Position numbers and translations under genes: made by a program
The notes under the pieces: generated by a model
The model's input: the letters and a program-made list of their open reading frames with translations, nothing else
Databases searched by the model: none
What the model was told of the DNA's origin: nothing
NCBI GenBank assembly: GCA_020201275.1
Contig: JAIVHB010000001.1
Location: forward strand, 1 to 43,454
Length of the DNA: 43,454 nucleotides
Reading direction: 5' to 3'
Source of the DNA: Rhodothermaceae bacterium
GTDB lineage: Bacteria; Bacteroidota; Rhodothermia; Balneolales; Cyclonatronaceae
Part shown: one piece after another, positions 9,557 to 20,520 of the stretch
Numbering within the stretch: the stretch's first letter is position 1
How the letters are laid out: each line of letters starts with the position of its first letter

Positions 9557-11164
9557 ATGGATATTCTTTTACAGATCGTTATTTACCTGCCGCTTCTCGG
9601 AGCGCTGGTTCTTCTGGCTGCACGCACAGATGAGATGGTGCGTATGATCAGCCTTTTTGTTACACTGGCAAGCTTTGCCCTGTCGGTGCCCCTGATGCTG
9701 AATTTTGATGTGGCCAATTCGCATGTGGGCCAGTTTATGACGGAGACGGGCCCTCTTCTGGCCGGACTGGATGTTAAGTACATTACCGCGCTCGACGGCC
9801 TGAGCCTGCTGTTGTTCATGCTCACCACTTTTTTTGGCCCGATAGTGGTGCTGTCTGCGTGGACATCCATCAGGAAGCATGTGAAGGGTTTCTTTGCCAT
9901 GCTGCTAATTCTGCAAACAGGTTCGCTGGGGGTATTCGCCTCGCTTGATCTGGTCGTTTTCTATGTATTCTTCGAGGTGACTCTTATCCCGATGTACTTC
10001 CTTATCGGTATCTGGGGCGGTGATGGCCGGATTGCTGCCACCATCAAATTCTTTCTGTACACACTGGTCGGCTCCCTCATCATGCTGGTAGCGTTAATCT
10101 ATCTCGGCTTCCATGCCGGTGATGCCATTAACAACGGGGTATTTACCACAGACTGGCGCCTGCTCAGCAGCCCGGCCTATCAGATCGGCCTGGTTGAGCA
10201 AACATGGATGTTCCTTGCATTTGCGCTTGCATTCAGTATCAAGGTACCCTTGTTCCCCTTCCATACCTGGCTGCCGTACGCCCACACAGAGGCACCGACT
10301 GCCGGCTCTGTAGTACTTGCGGCGATCATGCTGAAGATGGGAACCTACGGTCTGGTCAGGTTCTGCCTTCCTTTTTTCCCGAATGCTACCGAGGCTTTCG
10401 CTCCCTGGATGGGTGCACTGGCCGTAATCGGTATCATTTACGGGGCACTTGTGGCCATGGTGCAGAAAGACGTCAAGAAGCTTGTAGCCTACTCATCGGT
10501 GAGCCACCTCGGCTTTGTAGTACTCGGCATCTTTGCCCTGAACACCATGGCTGTGCAGGGTGCCATCATACAGATGGTGAACCACGGCCTTTCTACCGGG
10601 GCGCTCTTCCTTATTGTCGGCATGATCTACGACCGCAGGCATACCCGGATGATTTCCGATTTCGGCGGGCTGAGTGGTGTGATGCCGGTATTTGCCGTAT
10701 TCTTCATGATTGCCACACTGGCTTCGGTCGGGTTGCCGGGACTGAACGGGTTTGTAGGCGAATTTCTGATCCTGAACGGAGCATTCCATTCCGACGTGCT
10801 CAATTCCTTCTGGTTCACCATTTTCGGTGCAACTGGAGTTATTCTTGCTGCTGTTTATATGTTGTGGATGTACAGGAGAGTGATGTTCGGACCGGTTACC
10901 AACAAACTCAATGAAAAACTGGCCGACCTGAACGCACGCGAAATAACCCTTCTTGTACCGGTGATGATCTTCATCGTGTGGATCGGTATCCGGCCAACCC
11001 ATTTTACACAGTATTCCGAGCATCAGGTTACGCAGCTGCTGGAGGAATCGCGCCAGAAAAGCGCCTCGATCATGCAGGCGGCAAGGGCAGACGAACTTCC
11101 TGGCTGGGCCGGAAAATTCTACGATATCACACAAGAATTCGCATCCAAAATCGGAGAAGAATAA
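9557..11164 (+). CDS. nuoM: NADH-quinone oxidoreductase subunit M
   Basis: NuoM is an antiporter-like proton channel of the complex I membrane arm. It has 535 residues. Visible motifs are the glutamate helix FFEVTLIPMYFLIGIWGG near 140-157 and the lysine helix FSIKVPLFPFHTWLPYAH near 225-242, followed by TEAPTAGSVVLAAIMLKMG. The C-terminus extends about 40 residues past the last helix as a soluble, charged tail. Its TAA stop shares one base with the ATG of the pterin dehydratase gene (TAATG), suggesting coupled translation. Confidence 0.96.
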   Translation: MDILLQIVIYLPLLGALVLLAARTDEMVRMISLFVTLASFALSVPLMLNFDVANSHVGQFMTETGPLLAGLDVKYITALDGLSLLLFMLTTFFGPIVVLSAWTSIRKHVKGFFAMLLILQTGSLGVFASLDLVVFYVFFEVTLIPMYFLIGIWGGDGRIAATIKFFLYTLVGSLIMLVALIYLGFHAGDAINNGVFTTDWRLLSSPAYQIGLVEQTWMFLAFALAFSIKVPLFPFHTWLPYAHTEAPTAGSVVLAAIMLKMGTYGLVRFCLPFFPNATEAFAPWMGALAVIGIIYGALVAMVQKDVKKLVAYSSVSHLGFVVLGIFALNTMAVQGAIIQMVNHGLSTGALFLIVGMIYDRRHTRMISDFGGLSGVMPVFAVFFMIATLASVGLPGLNGFVGEFLILNGAFHSDVLNSFWFTIFGATGVILAAVYMLWMYRRVMFGPVTNKLNEKLADLNAREITLLVPVMIFIVWIGIRPTHFTQYSEHQVTQLLEESRQKSASIMQAARADELPGWAGKFYDITQEFASKIGEE

Positions 11165-11448
11165 TGAGTACCCCGTTGTCTGAAACTCAGATTAAAGACA
11201 GCCTTACAGCACTCGACGGCTGGAGAACCGAAGGCGACAAACTGATGAAGGATTTCAAATTTCCCGGCTTCAGAGAGGCTATGGCTTTCATGGTAAGGGT
11301 TGGATTTGAGGCTGAAGAACAGGGCCACCACCCGGAGATGTTCAATGTGTACAACAACGTAACTATCGGGCTGGCAACGCACGATGCCGGTAACAAGGTT
11401 ACGGCCATGGATGTGAAACTGGCCAAAGCGATCGATACTCTATTATAA
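11164..11448 (+). CDS. pcd: Pterin-4a-carbinolamine dehydratase (PCD/DCoH family)
   Basis: PCD dehydrates 4a-hydroxytetrahydropterin formed by aromatic amino-acid hydroxylases; bacterial versions have also been linked to molybdopterin metabolism. The 94-residue protein matches the normal length and carries the active-site motif EQGHHPEMFNVYNNV plus the T-HDAGNKVTAMD segment and ending KLAKAID. It lies inside the nuo operon: its ATG overlaps the nuoM stop, and the nuoN start follows 12 bases after its own stop. A pcd homologue among complex I genes has been reported for Rhodothermus marinus, so the association is a lineage trait rather than a chance insertion. Why a pterin enzyme travels with complex I is unknown. 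Confidence 0.93.
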   Translation: MSTPLSETQIKDSLTALDGWRTEGDKLMKDFKFPGFREAMAFMVRVGFEAEEQGHHPEMFNVYNNVTIGLATHDAGNKVTAMDVKLAKAIDTLL

Positions 11449-11460
11449 TTGCATTTGCAG

Positions 11461-12912
11461 ATGGAAATTTTAAACGACATGGTTCTCTACCTGCCCGCTA
11501 TTATCATTGCGCTGGCCGGGCTCATTGTTATGATGGTGGATGCCTACACGAAGAATACGGCCACGATCTATACCGTATCGGTCGGATCACTGGTACTGGC
11601 ACTCGCTGCAGCGGTTTACGGTCTTTTTTTACCGTCGGCGGAGATTTTTTACGGTATGGCCACAACGGGCGGAACGGCGGCATTCGGCACGGCACTTGTT
11701 GTGGCGGCAACCCTGTTTGTAGTGGTGCTGTCCAGAGAGTACCTCACCGGCATCAATCACAATTTTGCGGAGGTTTATACCCTCATTCTTTTCGGAACGG
11801 TAGGAATGATCGTGCTGGCAACGGCCAGCGACCTGGTTACCGTATTTCTGGGACTTGAAACCATGTCGATTGCCTTGTATGTGCTGGCCGGTATTGTAAG
11901 GGATGAGAAAACGGGAATCGAGGCTGCTCTGAAATATTTCCTTCTCGGTTCATTCGCAACAGGATTTTTTCTGTACGGAATCGCGCTGCTATATGGTGCA
12001 ACCGGAACAACACGTCTGGCCGAGATCGGTCTGTATGCCGATGCAGGCCTGATCTACTGGGCAGGAGTGGGGCTGCTGCTCGTCGGATTCTTCTTTAAAG
12101 TTTCGGTGGTTCCCTTCCACATGTGGACACCCGACGTTTATGAGGGCGCGCCGACAACCATTACCGCCTATATGGCTACAGCAGCGAAGACGGCTGCCTT
12201 TGTATCCCTCATACTGATACTGGAGAGGGCCATACCCCTTGCCGTTGAACAGTGGAGCAGTGTGCTTGTGGTGATCGCCATACTCACCATGGTACTCGGT
12301 AATACTGTAGCCATGGTACAGAACAATGTAAAGCGGATGCTGGCCTATTCCAGTATAGCCCATGCCGGTTATGTTCTCGTGGGTCTTGCCGCCGGCACGG
12401 CCGCCGGTTATTCGGCGGTGCTGTATTATCTGCTGGCCTATACCCTGATGAATATCGGAGCCTTTGGCGTGGTGGCCTATTATGAGCGCCACAAGGGCAT
12501 GAAATTCAACAGTGTTGACCAGTATGCCGGGTTGGGGTACAAGCAACCCATGATGGCCGTACTTCTCGGAATATTTCTCTTCTCGCTTGCCGGGATCCCA
12601 CCGTTTGCCGGATTCATCGGCAAGTACCAGGTCTTTGCGGCAGCCATACAGGCCGATCTGATCGGGCTTGCCATAGTAGGTGTATTGGCAAGTGTGGCGG
12701 GGGTATACTACTACCTGCGCGTTCTTGTGTTTTTGTACATGAAGGAAGGCACAGAAGAAATTGAACTCACCCGGGCCGGGGTGCCTTACAGATTTGTACT
12801 GCTGCTGCTGGCGTTACTCACTATCTATTTCGGGATTCTACCGGGCGGGTTATCGGAGCTTCTAACGGGATTCTATCAGGGCTCACTTTATTCAGTTGCC
12901 CCGCTGCCCTGA
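11461..12912 (+). CDS. nuoN: NADH-quinone oxidoreductase subunit N
   Basis: NuoN is the antiporter-like subunit of complex I next to NuoK. Starting at the ATG at 11461 (MEILNDMVLYLP) gives 483 residues; TTG codons at 11449 and 11455 are less likely starts. Seen are the glutamate helix FLGLETMSIALYVLAG and the lysine helix FFFKVSVVPFHMWTPDVYEG, then GAPTTITAYMAT. It is the last gene of the cluster, and a separate promoter precedes rpsF about 100 bases on. Confidence 0.95.
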   Translation: MEILNDMVLYLPAIIIALAGLIVMMVDAYTKNTATIYTVSVGSLVLALAAAVYGLFLPSAEIFYGMATTGGTAAFGTALVVAATLFVVVLSREYLTGINHNFAEVYTLILFGTVGMIVLATASDLVTVFLGLETMSIALYVLAGIVRDEKTGIEAALKYFLLGSFATGFFLYGIALLYGATGTTRLAEIGLYADAGLIYWAGVGLLLVGFFFKVSVVPFHMWTPDVYEGAPTTITAYMATAAKTAAFVSLILILERAIPLAVEQWSSVLVVIAILTMVLGNTVAMVQNNVKRMLAYSSIAHAGYVLVGLAAGTAAGYSAVLYYLLAYTLMNIGAFGVVAYYERHKGMKFNSVDQYAGLGYKQPMMAVLLGIFLFSLAGIPPFAGFIGKYQVFAAAIQADLIGLAIVGVLASVAGVYYYLRVLVFLYMKEGTEEIELTRAGVPYRFVLLLLALLTIYFGILPGGLSELLTGFYQGSLYSVAPLP

Positions 12913-14501: not shown

Positions 14502-17500
14502 GTGTGCTCATTCAAGCCGCATTTGTGGATATTGCTATCGGTACCCCTGCTCCTTTCGTACGAGTATGGCCTTGCCCAGACAGGGCTTGAACGGGTACGT
14601 TCTGTTGAAGTTGCCGGTGCCGGGCAACCGCTTTTTCTCGACTACTTCGTGATAGAGTCGGATCTAAGGGTCTATCTGGCCGACAGCCTCATTTCACCGC
14701 AGGAATGGACTTACAGTCAGGCTGAGGGTACATGGCAGCTGAACCGGCCGTTCTGGCCCGATGATGAACCGCGGATACTCACTTTCCGATACCGTGTGAT
14801 TCCCGTCTCGCTGCAACCGGTTTACAGGGCAAGGGAACTGGTACCTGCAGAAACAGACACCGCCGAAGGGCTGCCCGATGGTACTGCCCTTGTAAGCAGG
14901 CCCTTTACCCGGAGTGATCTGTTCGGTGATTCCCGGCTCACACGCAGCGGTTCATTATCGAGGGGTATTTCGTTTGGCACCAACAGGGATTTCAGCCTTG
15001 AGAGTGGTCTGCGTTTCGAACTGAGCGGGTATATTACCGATGATGTTGAGGTGCTTGCAACCCTTACCGATCAGACAACACCCATCCAGCCCGACGGAAG
15101 TACACAGAACCTGCGTGAGTTCGACAAGGTGTATATCCGCCTGAACAGTCCTTACGGACAGGTACAGCTCGGCGATATCGATGTATCACTACAGAACAGT
15201 CAGTTTGCCCGTGTACAGCGCCGCCTTCAGGGAGCCGATGTACTTACTTCATCGCCACAGATAGGAAGTCTGAACGCGGCAGGGGCCGTAGTTCGCGGTG
15301 AATTCCGAACGCAGTCCCTGGCGGGATCAGACGGGGTTCAGGGCCCCTACAGGCTCAGCGGGTCGAAGGGAGAACAGTTTATCATTGTGCTGGCCGGAAC
15401 CGAGAGGGTTTACCTCGACGGGGTCAGGCTTAACCGGGGCGAGGAAAACGATTATGTGATCGATTATGGCCTGGGTGAGATCACCTTTACAGCCAGCCGG
15501 ATCATGACCAACGCAAGCCGCATCGTGGTTGAGTTCCAGTACATCACACAGGAATACACCCGAACCATCATTGCAACCGAGGCCGAAGCCGGTAACCTGA
15601 TGGATGGCAGGTGGATGGTAGGTGCGAGTTTCATCCGTGAGTCTGACGATAAGAACCTGTTGTCGGAGTTCGGCCTGAGCGATGAAGAACGGTCTATACT
15701 GGAAATGGCCGGCAACGATCCTGATCAGGCCGTTATAAGCGGGGTCGATTCGGTCGGTTTCAGCCGGGATGCCGATTATATACTCTACGCCCGGCGCGAT
15801 ACGGTTTTCCAGGGCCAGCCCTACTCAATTTTCCGGCATGAGCCGGGCGACACGTCCGGTGTATTCAGGGTGAGGTTCAGCCGTGTGGATGACGGAACAG
15901 GCTCGTACCGCCGTGCCAGAAGCACCTCGAACGGTATCGTCTATGAATGGGTGGGCCCGGGCCGGGGCAATTATGAGCCGTTCCGGAGAATCCCGGCACC
16001 CGAAAACCGGATTATGGCCACTATCAGAAGCAGTTACCGCATTACCCCCGACATCTCCATTTATGGTGAGCTCGCCGGCAGCAGTTTCGACCGGAACCGT
16101 TTCTCGAGCTTGGGCAACACGAATAATAACGACAGCGGCTACTATACCGGAATCAGCATTACCGAAACGGAAACCGTTGCCGGGTTAATCTCATTTGATT
16201 TCAGCCATCGTTTTACCGGCCGCAATTTCAGTTACTTCGACCGTATACGTGATGTAGAGTTCGACAGGACCTGGAATATAACCGATACGGAAATTACAGG
16301 TGAGCGCATATCTGAGGCTGCAATGGCCTGGCAACCCGCATCAGAAACCCGGTTCAAATACACATTCGGCATACTCGGCCGCGCTGATATTGGAGCCTTC
16401 AGGCACAATGCAGGTCTGGTCAGCCGCGAAGAGGGGCTTCCGTTTATAGAATACGATGTAACCTATGCCGATAGCAGGGAAGAACTGTTTGGCGTAAAAG
16501 GACAGTGGCTGAGGCAGACAGGCACCGCCGGCTATGATGTGGCTGCAGGATCGCATACGATAACTCCCGGCTTCAGGGTTGAACATGAAAACCGCGAACA
16601 GGTTCTGATCGGTACCGACTCGCTCACCCGTCAGAGTCTGATGTTTCTGGATCTGATGCCGGGTCTCACTTTCCGTTCATCCGAAGACCGGTTTAAGGCA
16701 TCCTTTTCATATGCATTTCGCGATGACAACCGGGCAGACAGGGGGCTGATGAGGGATGAATCCCGTTCGTTTACCCGGCGGTATTCTGTAGAGTACCGTC
16801 CCGGAGCCGTGATGCAGACAACCAATACGCTTGCCTTCAGAAAGCGGGAATATTCCGATTATTTCAGGGAAACATTGCAGTTTCAGGACAACAGAAGTGT
16901 AGTTCTGCAGTCGAACACCTTGTTCCGGCCGATGAACCGCTTTATTGACCTGCTCCTGTTTTACGAGATCAATACCGAAAGCCGGGCCCTGTTGCAGGAG
17001 ACTTTTATAGAGATTGGTCCTGAACTTGGCCAGTATATATGGGTTGACCTGAACAACGACGGGGTGCAGCAGATCGATGAATTCTTCCCGGCAACTGTAC
17101 CCGGCGAAGGGATTTATGTTAAGCAGTTTATCCCATCCGATGAGCTTTTTCCTGTGATCTCCCTTAATACCCGCCTGAGAAGCAGGATCAGTCCCGAAAG
17201 GATTATCAGGGCTGATGCATCCAATCCAACAGTGCTGGAAATTCTTCGGAACATAGAACTTAACAGCGTTCTCGACATCAGAGAGCGCAATACGACCAGC
17301 CGATTGGAAGATATATATCTGCTGAGGCTGAATACATTCAGAGACGATTCACTCACAATCGAAGGGCGCCTATACTGGCAGCAGGAGGTAGATCTGTTCA
17401 CACAGAGCCGGCTGTTCGATCTCAGATTTTCAGTTGATCAGAACCTTGGCCTTAACAGAAGGGCGACTGGTCTTGATGAGCAAGAGTCGGTTTCCTTCCG

Positions 17501-18011
17501 GTTTTATACCACACTCAGAGCGCTGCGCGGCTGGCAGTTCACAATAGCAGGCCGGTCGGCGAGCAGCCTGAACACCAGCGAAAACCTGTCGGGCCGAAAC
17601 TACGACATCCGTGATATGGGCATTGAGCCGGAGATCAGATATGAAATAAGCCGGGCGTGGCAGGTAGGGTTAGGCTCCTCAATAATTCGCAAAACTGACC
17701 GGTTTTCGACCGACAATGCGACCCTGAATACGTTCCGGCTGCGGGCGGATACGCGAATATTTTCAGGCATGGGGTTGCAGGGGCAGGGGAGAATTGAGTT
17801 CAGGTCGAACCGGCTGACCGGAACAACAAGCAGCCTTGGAGAATTCGAAATGACGGAAGGCGCCGGGCTGGGCAGCACATTCCTGTGGAGCGCCGGATTA
17901 TCCTGGCGTGTGAGTGAATTCATACGGGCAACGGTGAATTACGACGGCCGTACAATTTCCGACCGGCCGGCCGTACAAACACTGCGCGTGGTATTTACAG
18001 CTGTATTCTGA
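14502..18011 (+). CDS. Large outer-membrane beta-barrel protein, function unknown
   Basis: The start is GTG at 14502; an in-frame TGA at 14484 limits the frame upstream. The 1,169-residue product begins with a signal peptide whose core is LWILLSVPLLLS and likely cleavage after GLAQ (residue about 26). Residues 130-300 contain a compact segment with LGDIDVSLQNSQFARVQRR and the recognisable block VYLDGVRLNRGEENDYVIDY followed by GLGEITFTASR, seen in large surface proteins of Bacteroidota, Chlorobi and relatives. The remaining two thirds alternate polar and hydrophobic residues like barrel strands and end in VVFTAVF, a C-terminal aromatic as in BamA-type insertion signals. An acidic DLNNDGVQQIDEF loop near residue 850 resembles a calcium-binding loop. 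Export to the outer membrane is well supported; its cargo or role is not. Confidence 0.75.
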   Translation: MCSFKPHLWILLSVPLLLSYEYGLAQTGLERVRSVEVAGAGQPLFLDYFVIESDLRVYLADSLISPQEWTYSQAEGTWQLNRPFWPDDEPRILTFRYRVIPVSLQPVYRARELVPAETDTAEGLPDGTALVSRPFTRSDLFGDSRLTRSGSLSRGISFGTNRDFSLESGLRFELSGYITDDVEVLATLTDQTTPIQPDGSTQNLREFDKVYIRLNSPYGQVQLGDIDVSLQNSQFARVQRRLQGADVLTSSPQIGSLNAAGAVVRGEFRTQSLAGSDGVQGPYRLSGSKGEQFIIVLAGTERVYLDGVRLNRGEENDYVIDYGLGEITFTASRIMTNASRIVVEFQYITQEYTRTIIATEAEAGNLMDGRWMVGASFIRESDDKNLLSEFGLSDEERSILEMAGNDPDQAVISGVDSVGFSRDADYILYARRDTVFQGQPYSIFRHEPGDTSGVFRVRFSRVDDGTGSYRRARSTSNGIVYEWVGPGRGNYEPFRRIPAPENRIMATIRSSYRITPDISIYGELAGSSFDRNRFSSLGNTNNNDSGYYTGISITETETVAGLISFDFSHRFTGRNFSYFDRIRDVEFDRTWNITDTEITGERISEAAMAWQPASETRFKYTFGILGRADIGAFRHNAGLVSREEGLPFIEYDVTYADSREELFGVKGQWLRQTGTAGYDVAAGSHTITPGFRVEHENREQVLIGTDSLTRQSLMFLDLMPGLTFRSSEDRFKASFSYAFRDDNRADRGLMRDESRSFTRRYSVEYRPGAVMQTTNTLAFRKREYSDYFRETLQFQDNRSVVLQSNTLFRPMNRFIDLLLFYEINTESRALLQETFIEIGPELGQYIWVDLNNDGVQQIDEFFPATVPGEGIYVKQFIPSDELFPVISLNTRLRSRISPERIIRADASNPTVLEILRNIELNSVLDIRERNTTSRLEDIYLLRLNTFRDDSLTIEGRLYWQQEVDLFTQSRLFDLRFSVDQNLGLNRRATGLDEQESVSFRFYTTLRALRGWQFTIAGRSASSLNTSENLSGRNYDIRDMGIEPEIRYEISRAWQVGLGSSIIRKTDRFSTDNATLNTFRLRADTRIFSGMGLQGQGRIEFRSNRLTGTTSSLGEFEMTEGAGLGSTFLWSAGLSWRVSEFIRATVNYDGRTISDRPAVQTLRVVFTAVF

Positions 18012-18484: not shown

Positions 18485-19198
18485 ATGACCCTCTCCTCAA
18501 CTGTACTAATGATGCAAGTGACCGACGACATGGGGCTGTTCAACGTGCTTGTCGAGTACTTCAATCAAGGCGGCGATTTCATGTGGCCGGTATTGGTTTG
18601 TCTCATTCTGGGGCTTGCCATATTTCTGGAAAGACTTATAACACTCAATCGCGCCGATATTAACACGCGTCAATTCATATTGCAGGTAAAAGAAGCCCTT
18701 CAAACCGGTGGCATCAGTGCTGCTGAAGAGCTTTGCTCACGTACCCGCGGCCCCGTTGCCTCTGTATTTCAGGCTGGTCTTCTCCGTGCCGACGAGGGTA
18801 TTGAAGCTGCCGAAAAGGCCATTACTTCATATGGTTCCATCGAGATGAGCTTTCTGGAGCGGGGTCTGGTCTGGTTGTCCCTGTTTATTGCACTTGCTCC
18901 GCTGCTCGGATTTACCGGAACCGTAATCGGGATGGTTCAGGCCTTCGATGCTATCGAAGTTGCCGGTGACATCTCTCCGAGTCTTGTAGCCGGTGGTATC
19001 AAGGTTGCTCTTCTCACTACACTTGCCGGACTTATGTCGGCGATTATTCTTCAGGTGGGTTACAATTATTGTGTGTCGAAAATTGACCGCCTTGTTGTAG
19101 ATATGGAAGAGAGCTCGATTGTACTCATCGATTCTATCGCGATGATGCAGGAAGGCAAACCTCTGATTGCACCCAGCGAATCAACCGATAAAGAATAA
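18485..19198 (+). CDS. exbB: MotA/TolQ/ExbB proton-channel family protein
   Basis: ExbB-type proteins form the inner-membrane pentamer that uses the proton gradient, with ExbD, to energise TonB or related systems. The 237-residue protein has a first membrane helix at about 33-50 (WPVLVCLILGLAIFLERL), a cytoplasmic helical domain, and the conserved last two helices. These contain WLSLFIALAPLLGFTGTVIGM and SLVAGGIKVALLTTLAGLMSAI. The conserved LGFTGTV and the threonines of the final helix are intact. It heads a cluster with a small membrane protein and two exbD genes. No tonB is in this window. Confidence 0.92.
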   Translation: MTLSSTVLMMQVTDDMGLFNVLVEYFNQGGDFMWPVLVCLILGLAIFLERLITLNRADINTRQFILQVKEALQTGGISAAEELCSRTRGPVASVFQAGLLRADEGIEAAEKAITSYGSIEMSFLERGLVWLSLFIALAPLLGFTGTVIGMVQAFDAIEVAGDISPSLVAGGIKVALLTTLAGLMSAIILQVGYNYCVSKIDRLVVDMEESSIVLIDSIAMMQEGKPLIAPSESTDKE

Positions 19199-19219
19199 TC
19201 TTCGATCAAGGAAGTTTTT

Positions 19220-19489
19220 ATGGTACCCATTGCAATAGGACTCACACTGATACTCGTAGCAGCCGGAGTAATCGGAATTCTGGTTTTCGGCTTTATGAAT
19301 GTCATTTCCGGCAAGATGGCCCTTGATAAACTGGTAACGATTGCCGTTCCATTCATCATTGCCGTCATTGCCTATTTCGTGTTCGGTGATGCCACCCAGG
19401 CTGCCATCTTCACTATGCTGCTGATGATCGGCATCGTTTTCCTGGGTATTTTTCTTACCGGCGCACGAAGTTCATTTATCAAAATTTAA
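19220..19489 (+). CDS. Small three-helix membrane protein between exbB and exbD
   Basis: I do not recognise a named family. The 89 residues are almost all membrane: helices at about 3-25, 37-53 and 59-82, with a short KMALDK loop and the C-terminal end ARSSFIKI. An AAGGA sequence lies in the short gap before its ATG. It sits 21 bases after exbB and 12 bases before exbD, so it is almost certainly cotranscribed and probably part of, or an accessory to, the ExbB-ExbD motor. That role is inferred from position only. Confidence 0.75.
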   Translation: MVPIAIGLTLILVAAGVIGILVFGFMNVISGKMALDKLVTIAVPFIIAVIAYFVFGDATQAAIFTMLLMIGIVFLGIFLTGARSSFIKI

Positions 19490-19501
19490 CGGTAACCCTT
19501 C

Positions 19502-20056
19502 ATGTTACTAAAGAAAAAAAAGACCAAAGGTGAAGCCGAGGTTCCCTCGTCGTCACTGGCCGATATCGCATTTCTGCTTCTGATCTTCTTTCTGGTGGTA
19601 ACTACCATTGATGTTGACACCGGAATCGGACTAGTGCTCCCGCCCCTGTCTGATGAGCCCCCGCCACCAATCAGGGAGCGGAACATGCTAAAAATCCTTG
19701 TCAACAATCAGGGACTAATTCTGGTTAACGAGTCACCTTCAGCCCTTCGCGATGTGAAAGACCTTGTTATCAGCTTTGTTGACAACAACGGCGAAGATGA
19801 GGAGTTATCCGAATCCCCGCAGATGGCTATTGTTTCTATCAAGACCGACCGTGATACCCCTTACGACATCTACATTGATATGCTTGATGAAGTAATGGGG
19901 GCATACAGAGAGCTCAGGGATGCCGAATCGCGCGTGCGCGGGTTCCGGAGTTATGAGCAATACAGAACATATGTGGATGAACGCGGACTTGAGGATGAAA
20001 TCCGGGATCTGTATCCGCAGAAGATTTCTGAAGCAGAGCCTGATCCAGGTGTATAA
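19502..20056 (+). CDS. exbD: ExbD/TolR-family biopolymer transport protein (first copy)
   Basis: ExbD pairs with ExbB and carries the protonatable aspartate of the motor. The protein has 184 residues. It starts with a lysine-rich cytoplasmic end, and then SSSLADIAFLLLIFFLVVTT gives the single membrane helix with the key Asp at residue 21. The periplasmic domain is longer than the usual ~140-residue ExbD, with an acidic insertion (NNGEDEELSESP) and a charged C-terminal extension (residues 140-184). This makes it distinct from the second copy next door. Confidence 0.9.
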   Translation: MLLKKKKTKGEAEVPSSSLADIAFLLLIFFLVVTTIDVDTGIGLVLPPLSDEPPPPIRERNMLKILVNNQGLILVNESPSALRDVKDLVISFVDNNGEDEELSESPQMAIVSIKTDRDTPYDIYIDMLDEVMGAYRELRDAESRVRGFRSYEQYRTYVDERGLEDEIRDLYPQKISEAEPDPGV

Positions 20057-20073
20057 TCTATTAAAAATTAGTT

Positions 20074-20520
20074 ATGGCACACTTCAAGAAAAAAGCGAAA
20101 GCGAAGCAGGATGTACCGACATCATCGATGCCCGATATCATCTTCATGCTTCTGATCTTCTTCATGGTTACCACGGTACTGCGTGAAGTTGAACTGCAGG
20201 TGAGGGTACAGCTAACCTCGGCTACCAACATCGAAAAGATTGAGCAGAAGCGCCTCGTCAGTTATGTCTACATCGGTCCCCGCGTTCTCGGAGCAAACCG
20301 CTACGGCGATACCAGTGTTCAGATTGATGATGATCTGGTCGAAGATTACCGTGTTATCCGCAGGCTGATGTACGATAAACTCAGGGAACAACCCAAGCTG
20401 ATCGTATCTATACGTGTTGACCGTGAATCGGAGATGGGCGTTGTAAGCGATGTTAAGCAGGAATTACGTGAAGCCGGTACGCTGAGGATCAATTATTCTA
20501 CACGAAGAGATCCAATCTGA
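20074..20520 (+). CDS. exbD: ExbD/TolR-family biopolymer transport protein (second copy)
   Basis: A second ExbD of 148 residues starts 17 bases after the first. Its pattern is the same: lysine-rich start, TSSMPDIIFMLLIFFMVTT with Asp21 in the membrane helix, then a periplasmic domain ending in VVSDVKQELREAGTLRINYS, the usual C-terminal ExbD fold. The two copies differ strongly outside the helix, so they may form a mixed dimer in the ExbB pore. A terminator follows, closing the exbB-X-exbD-exbD unit. Confidence 0.92.
   Translation: MAHFKKKAKAKQDVPTSSMPDIIFMLLIFFMVTTVLREVELQVRVQLTSATNIEKIEQKRLVSYVYIGPRVLGANRYGDTSVQIDDDLVEDYRVIRRLMYDKLREQPKLIVSIRVDRESEMGVVSDVKQELREAGTLRINYSTRRDPI

Follow-up and report, generated by a model that had tools for sequence, protein, structure and literature searches.

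Gene organization of the unit

The window analyzed here is a stretch of 43,454 nt that constitutes the entire contig C26 of a Rhodothermaceae bacterium genome (3.42 Mb in 253 contigs). At positions 18485 to 20520, a preliminary description of this DNA had placed an exbB gene, a small membrane protein gene, and two exbD genes in this order. All four open reading frames (ORFs) were indeed present on the plus strand, and three of them carry Pfam domains. The first gene, exbB (18485..19198, +), encodes a proton-channel protein of the MotA/TolQ/ExbB family with 237 aa, a member of PF01618 (MotA_ExbB; 2.5e-26, 92.3 bits versus a Pfam cut-off of 22.9). Under the equivalog cut-offs of NCBIfam, its scores were too low for both tolQ (62.3 of 221 bits) and exbB (38.2 of 206.2 bits). 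The consensus of ExbB carries the GT and LTT motifs, the threonines of which presumably line the pore.

The second ORF (19220..19489, +) encodes an unnamed membrane protein of 89 aa that has no Pfam or NCBIfam family at the cut-off and has three helices in a predicted N-out/C-in orientation. It is followed by exbD1 (19502..20056, +), encoding a long ExbD paralogue of 184 aa, and exbD2 (20074..20520, +), encoding a short paralogue of 148 aa. Both proteins passed the PF02472 cut-off of 25.4 bits, ExbD1 with 62 bits (7.5e-17) and ExbD2 with 48.4 bits (1.3e-12). As described before, Asp21 lies in a helix of each ExbD, and it was located in the N-terminal helix of both. From exbB to exbD2, the genes are separated by gaps of 21, 12, and 17 nt. 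A plasmid search using the DNA of the unit returned zero matches.

Upstream of the unit, the window encodes a protein of 1,169 aa (14502-18011, +) that matched no Pfam family and contains a weak SprA stretch (18.4 bits versus a cut-off of 200). A homologue of this protein lies directly upstream of the unit in three other loci (L113, L114, and L126). Two membrane proteins of the proton-antiporter family (Proton_antipo_M) are encoded at 9557-12912 (+).

A conserved small membrane protein without a family entry

The AlphaFold2 model of the 89-aa protein had a pLDDT of 92.6, with helices at residues 2-29, 35-55, and 58-87. Charged residues were counted in 44 aligned small-protein rows. Loop 1 (95 K+R versus 22 D+E) and the C-terminus (80 versus 12) were positive, and loop 2 (53 versus 109) and the N-terminus (39 versus 73) were acidic, so the positive-inside rule predicts an N-out, C-in orientation. 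We take this predicted topology (N-out, with a positive loop 1 and C-terminus and an acidic loop 2) to resemble that of ExbB. An origin as a remnant or paralogue of ExbB was nevertheless rejected, as the hhalign probability of ExbB against three small-protein alignments was 0.1-0.5%.

The window's protein matched no Pfam or NCBIfam family at the cut-off, and a 40-row set of small proteins gave just scattered matches in these two collections, with one to three members each. Assignment to a known family was also rejected when PHROGs was included, as matches were below the cut-off or spread over unrelated membrane proteins. Foldseek searches of the PDB with the short and long forms of the protein returned nothing at an E value of 0.001 or lower, and a PDB sequence search returned nothing at an E value of 1 or lower. 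When the small protein was aligned on eight chains using VIA-align, the best Z score was 5.2 over 48 residues, which may reflect just a common helical arrangement. No description of the small protein was found in the available text of the open-licence literature.

The length of the protein varied among lineages. Short forms of 86-95 aa, a few of them called longer, were found in the window's order and class, and homologues of about 102-116 aa in other groups. Flavobacteriaceae and Saprospiraceae mostly had long forms, which span 135-178 aa and carry a fourth helix at the N-terminus. The AlphaFold2 model of a flavobacterial long form (pLDDT 86.2) had one extra long helix at the N-terminus. The profiles of the short and long forms matched with an hhalign probability of 96.9% over 88 columns, and each recovered part of the other set at an E value of 1e-3 or better.

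For 24 of 33 close pairs, a dN/dS ratio of the small protein could be computed; it was 0.04-0.19, versus 0.01-0.06 for ExbB, with many pairs in this comparison near saturation. Thus, purifying selection acts on the small protein, which is constrained and evolves faster than ExbB.

Linkage of the small gene to exbD1

A single-sequence search with the small protein matched 32 of 148 genomes of the phylum, and a 44-row profile matched 51 places in 50 of the 148. In 48 of the 51 matches, one per genome in 48 genomes, the small gene lay directly 5' of exbD1 at a distance of 2-184 nt. The remaining three matches were weak (1.2e-4, 1.8e-4, and 9.1e-4) and fell in reading frames of 415, 415, and 646 aa. 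Among the 80 named loci that matched the exbD1 alignment best, the full exbB-small gene-exbD1-exbD2 unit was present in 74. Of the others, one (L141) contained the unit without the small gene and five were incomplete, two of which retained the small gene. The records of these best 80 loci include Balneolaceae, Rhodothermales, Salinivenus, Rubricoccaceae, Flavobacteriaceae, Cryomorphaceae, and Saprospiraceae. With an identical gene order in 74 of the 80 loci and 48 of the 51 profile matches directly 5' of exbD1, the unit is more than a chance arrangement. In the 74 full loci, the gaps between exbB and the small gene and between the small gene and exbD1 were mostly below 60 nt, as expected of cotranslated parts. 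The small membrane protein is therefore widely conserved, yet without a name. Loss from most relatives or unconstrained evolution, which had been named in advance as outcomes that would speak against it, was not seen in the synteny and dN/dS data.

Some relatives lacked the small gene. In 14 compared loci, exbB adjoined exbD1 with a gap of 13-50 nt; together with L141, these exbB-exbD1-exbD2 loci indicate that the motor can exist without the small protein. In L074, L076, L078, and L141, the order is exbB-exbD1-exbD2-tonB, with tonB directly downstream, which ties the motor lineage to TonB; at least one branch of this lineage keeps tonB in the operon. In L083, which also lacks the small gene, the Pfam-assigned downstream genes encode YqeY, a colicin V production protein, and MutS2, and the other such loci without tonB showed the same downstream gene-size pattern. 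A clean anticorrelation between the small gene and an adjacent tonB was considered and dropped, as the loci lacking the small gene are split, some having tonB and others having none by profile.

The genes flanking the unit differed among lineages. The unit is followed by thiL and ftsH in the window, and six named loci share this. An S41 peptidase gene precedes the unit both in L078, which lacks the small gene, and in the Rhodothermales locus L112, which has it. In Flavobacteriaceae, an asparaginase gene was found upstream in L169, and an OMP_b-brl_2 barrel gene follows exbD2 in all four loci checked, which was counted against a Ton-type function.

Two ancient ExbD paralogues

In a tree of 72 ExbD rows, 35 first copies were separated from 35 second copies by one branch with a support of 100/100, and Balneolota, Rhodothermota, and Bacteroidota (NCBI groups) occurred on both sides. 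The outgroup row was the genome's own third ExbD, which lies on a very long branch and is of unsure placement. A single fully supported branch with all three groups on each side indicates that the exbD duplication is ancient; a very recent duplication, which had been named in advance as a refuting outcome, is thus rejected.

The order and number of the copies were counted in 148 loci, of which 136 were complete and 12 were left uncounted, with at least four genomes represented twice. All 136 complete loci open with D1 followed by D2 (131 with one pair, 3 with two pairs, and 2 with an extra D1), and both copies carry the helix Asp in every one of them (in D1 of L088, as judged by eye). Asp21 was invariant in 17 of 17 rows of the ExbD1 alignment and likewise in 17 of 17 rows of the ExbD2 alignment. 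ExbD1 has a conserved C-terminal extension (S176, A178, E179, and P180) that is missing from ExbD2.

Other arrangements of exbD were also observed. Two exbD1-exbD2 pairs are present in L161, L172, and L176. ExbD1-like genes for which no exbB or second exbD was found in the stretch occur in L072, L073, L075, L093, L099, L103, and L111, and some of the genomes with such a lone gene contain a complete unit as well. In L108 (2644-4533, +), L109 (3731-5578, -), and L110 (3890-5470, -), an M56 (BlaR1-type) peptidase is fused to an ExbD periplasmic domain, with both Pfam domains over the cut-off. A literature search for exbD together with M56, BlaR1, and TonB found no paper.

TonB proteins and a second motor in the genome

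No tonB gene had been recognized in the window, and a TonB_C search of the whole genome agreed, with no match on contig C26. Candidate TonB partners are encoded elsewhere: TonB_C matched six places on five other contigs, five of the six over the cut-off, none linked to the unit. Among these are three strong orphan TonBs and a fusion of M56 with TonB. Two neighboring orphan tonB genes lie beside an NAD(P)H-hydrate repair gene on contig C240 (L192, 5309-7087, -), and contig C36 has one TonB_C gene. The fusion, an M56 peptidase joined to a TonB C-terminal domain, is encoded on contig C100 (L194, 5266-6918, -). The genome also encodes 28 Plug domains over the cut-off (29 matches in all), two ExbBs, and three ExbDs.

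In other loci, tonB was likewise rarely adjacent. The loci were screened with a profile built from the genome's own TonBs, a narrow one that may fail to detect divergent TonBs. Of 77 loci, one (L141, without the small gene) had a tonB on the same strand no more than 3 kb downstream, and one was found nearby on the other strand in L120. By this narrow profile, no named locus bearing the small gene had an adjacent tonB, which was also counted against a Ton-type function.

The second motor of the genome is on contig C89 (L195, 3048-6568, +), where genes for a SPOR-domain protein, ExbB, ExbD, and a weak TonB_C/TolA-like protein follow one another, an arrangement also seen in L197 and L198. The C89 ExbB scored 98.7 bits for tolQ versus 58.8 for exbB, both below the cut-off. 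TolB (PF04052) was found in none of seven genomes including this one, whereas E. coli, Caulobacter, and Bacteroides were positive as controls. Three genomes that are 99-100% complete (G061, G069, and G081) had two ExbB matches and five to nine TonB_C matches each. On balance, the C89 motor looks Tol-like and the unit in the window more probably represents the Ton motor, the opposite assignment being less likely.

Comparison with known Ton systems

The unit resembles the E. coli-type Ton motor in its MotA_ExbB and ExbD Pfam families, the ExbD helix Asp, and the GT and LTT motifs of ExbB. It differs in having two ancient ExbD paralogues, an extra three-helix protein, and unlinked tonB genes.

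Tandem exbD genes are known, according to the parts of the sources that were available, from Xanthomonas (tonB-exbB-exbD1-exbD2; PMC3551730), Flavobacterium psychrophilum (PMC9331221 and PMC3551730), and Riemerella (exbB-exbD-exbD-tonB2; PMC4446302). By gene order alone, these clusters are like the window's unit in that one exbB is followed by two exbD genes. However, the available text of the three papers does not describe a small membrane gene between exbB and exbD, which is present here, and tonB, as far as this text goes, is inside the cluster in Xanthomonas and Riemerella, whereas it is unlinked here. The related loci L074, L076, L078, and L141 have exbD genes of the same two groups (L074 and L141 in the tree), but tonB directly downstream and no small gene. 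The Riemerella TonB2 operon was dropped as functional proof, as its reported neighbors, leuS and a phosphate-binding protein gene, differ from those of the compared flavobacterial units.

The reported roles of the second exbD vary. In the available part of PMC3551730, exbD2 of Xanthomonas campestris was dispensable for iron uptake and needed for pectate lyase activity. An F. psychrophilum exbD2 mutant was impaired in growth under iron limitation, as cited in PMC9331221, which conflicts with the statement in PMC3551730 that this gene is not required for iron uptake. Extra proteins are known from the Vibrio TonB2 system, which depends on TtpC, TtpB, and TtpD for function (PMC6957404). It is similar as a Ton motor with additional proteins, compared by description only and from different bacteria. 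Moreover, the accessible sections of a 2025 force-transducer study (PMC12204202) report that TolQ-linked vWA genes carry an ExbD-like helix and mostly form heterologous pairs, which provides a precedent for unlike stalk halves. In the available text of a review on Ton and Tol motors from 2026 (PMC12905483), a term search found neither "accessory" nor "heterodimer" nor "ExbD1." The two-ExbD arrangement is of an already known kind; what is new is the conserved additional membrane protein.

A proposed Ton-type motor with an accessory subunit

We propose, with a probability of slightly over one half, that the unit encodes a Ton-type motor that has a stalk of ExbD1 and ExbD2 plus an accessory subunit in the membrane and that drives unlinked TonB proteins. 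In such a motor, ExbB would form the proton channel, and the unlike proteins ExbD1 and ExbD2, each with a proton-carrying helix Asp, would contribute one half each to the inner stalk. The small three-helix protein would sit against ExbB in the membrane, where it may stabilize the complex or tune its use. The motor would energize TonBs encoded elsewhere and hence TonB-dependent receptors. The ExbD1/ExbD2 heterodimer is an inference. That the small protein is a subunit of the motor is a well-supported inference, and the orphan TonBs are candidate partners of the motor. Besides the two points on tonB and the barrel gene given above, the units lacking the small gene, the faster evolution of the small protein relative to ExbB, and the TonB_C-like gene of the second motor weigh against the proposal.

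It is possible, though doubtful, that the unit is a separate envelope motor driving another outer-membrane process (concerned with a barrel, lipids, or envelope maintenance) and that the exbB-exbD-TonB_C operon of C89 is the Ton motor instead. The loci bearing the small gene lack an adjacent tonB by the narrow profile, an OMP_b-brl_2 barrel gene lies downstream in all four flavobacterial loci checked, and the third gene product of the C89 operon is TonB_C-like, all of which fit this explanation. However, the C89 ExbB scores best as TolQ and, like its counterparts in L197 and L198, adjoins a SPOR-domain protein. Furthermore, tonB follows the related units without the small gene in the four loci named above, and the three nearly complete genomes have just two ExbB matches and five to nine TonB_C matches each. 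A comparably doubtful alternative concerns the stalk: one ExbB may be shared by two homodimeric motors, ExbB-ExbD1 and ExbB-ExbD2, for different TonBs or conditions. The separable roles of exbD1 and exbD2 in X. campestris (PMC3551730), the extension conserved in ExbD1 and missing from ExbD2, and the existence of ExbD1-like genes without a neighboring exbB favor such a division, but the invariable order of D1 and D2 in 136 of 136 complete loci is at least equally consistent with an obligate pair.

For the small protein, it is unlikely that it is a factor helping ExbB or ExbD to assemble or insert, outside the finished motor. Its small size, its location between the channel genes, its evolution at a faster rate than ExbB, and its absence from some relatives would suit such a factor; nothing argues directly against it, and the strict linkage is compatible with both roles. 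It is very improbable that the small gene is a mere passenger that contributes nothing to the motor. It has no known domain and is missing from some lineages, but purifying selection acts on it, and 48 of the 51 profile matches among 148 genomes lie directly before exbD1 across lineages with differing flanking genes. The proposed Ton-type motor also has a more far-reaching form, which we regard as rather improbable: the small protein would be a true fourth subunit around the ExbB ring, at or near the dock of the TonB helix, and a shared asymmetric ExbD1/ExbD2 motor would serve several unlinked transducers, including the M56-fused TonB domains.

Implications

It is not yet settled how ExbB/ExbD motors transfer force to TonB. 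In the available text of the literature found, the motor structures under discussion contain two copies of one ExbD or TolR. If the proposal is true, two fixed unlike ExbD chains would provide a natural label for each half of the stalk and thus a test of rotation and wrapping models. As the small protein has no family entry, it is overlooked by annotation despite its conservation across several classes. If it is a subunit, many Ton motors of Bacteroidota have been described minus one part. Should it prove to be a true fourth subunit, a large share of the Bacteroidota group would possess a Ton motor that is asymmetric and built from four components.
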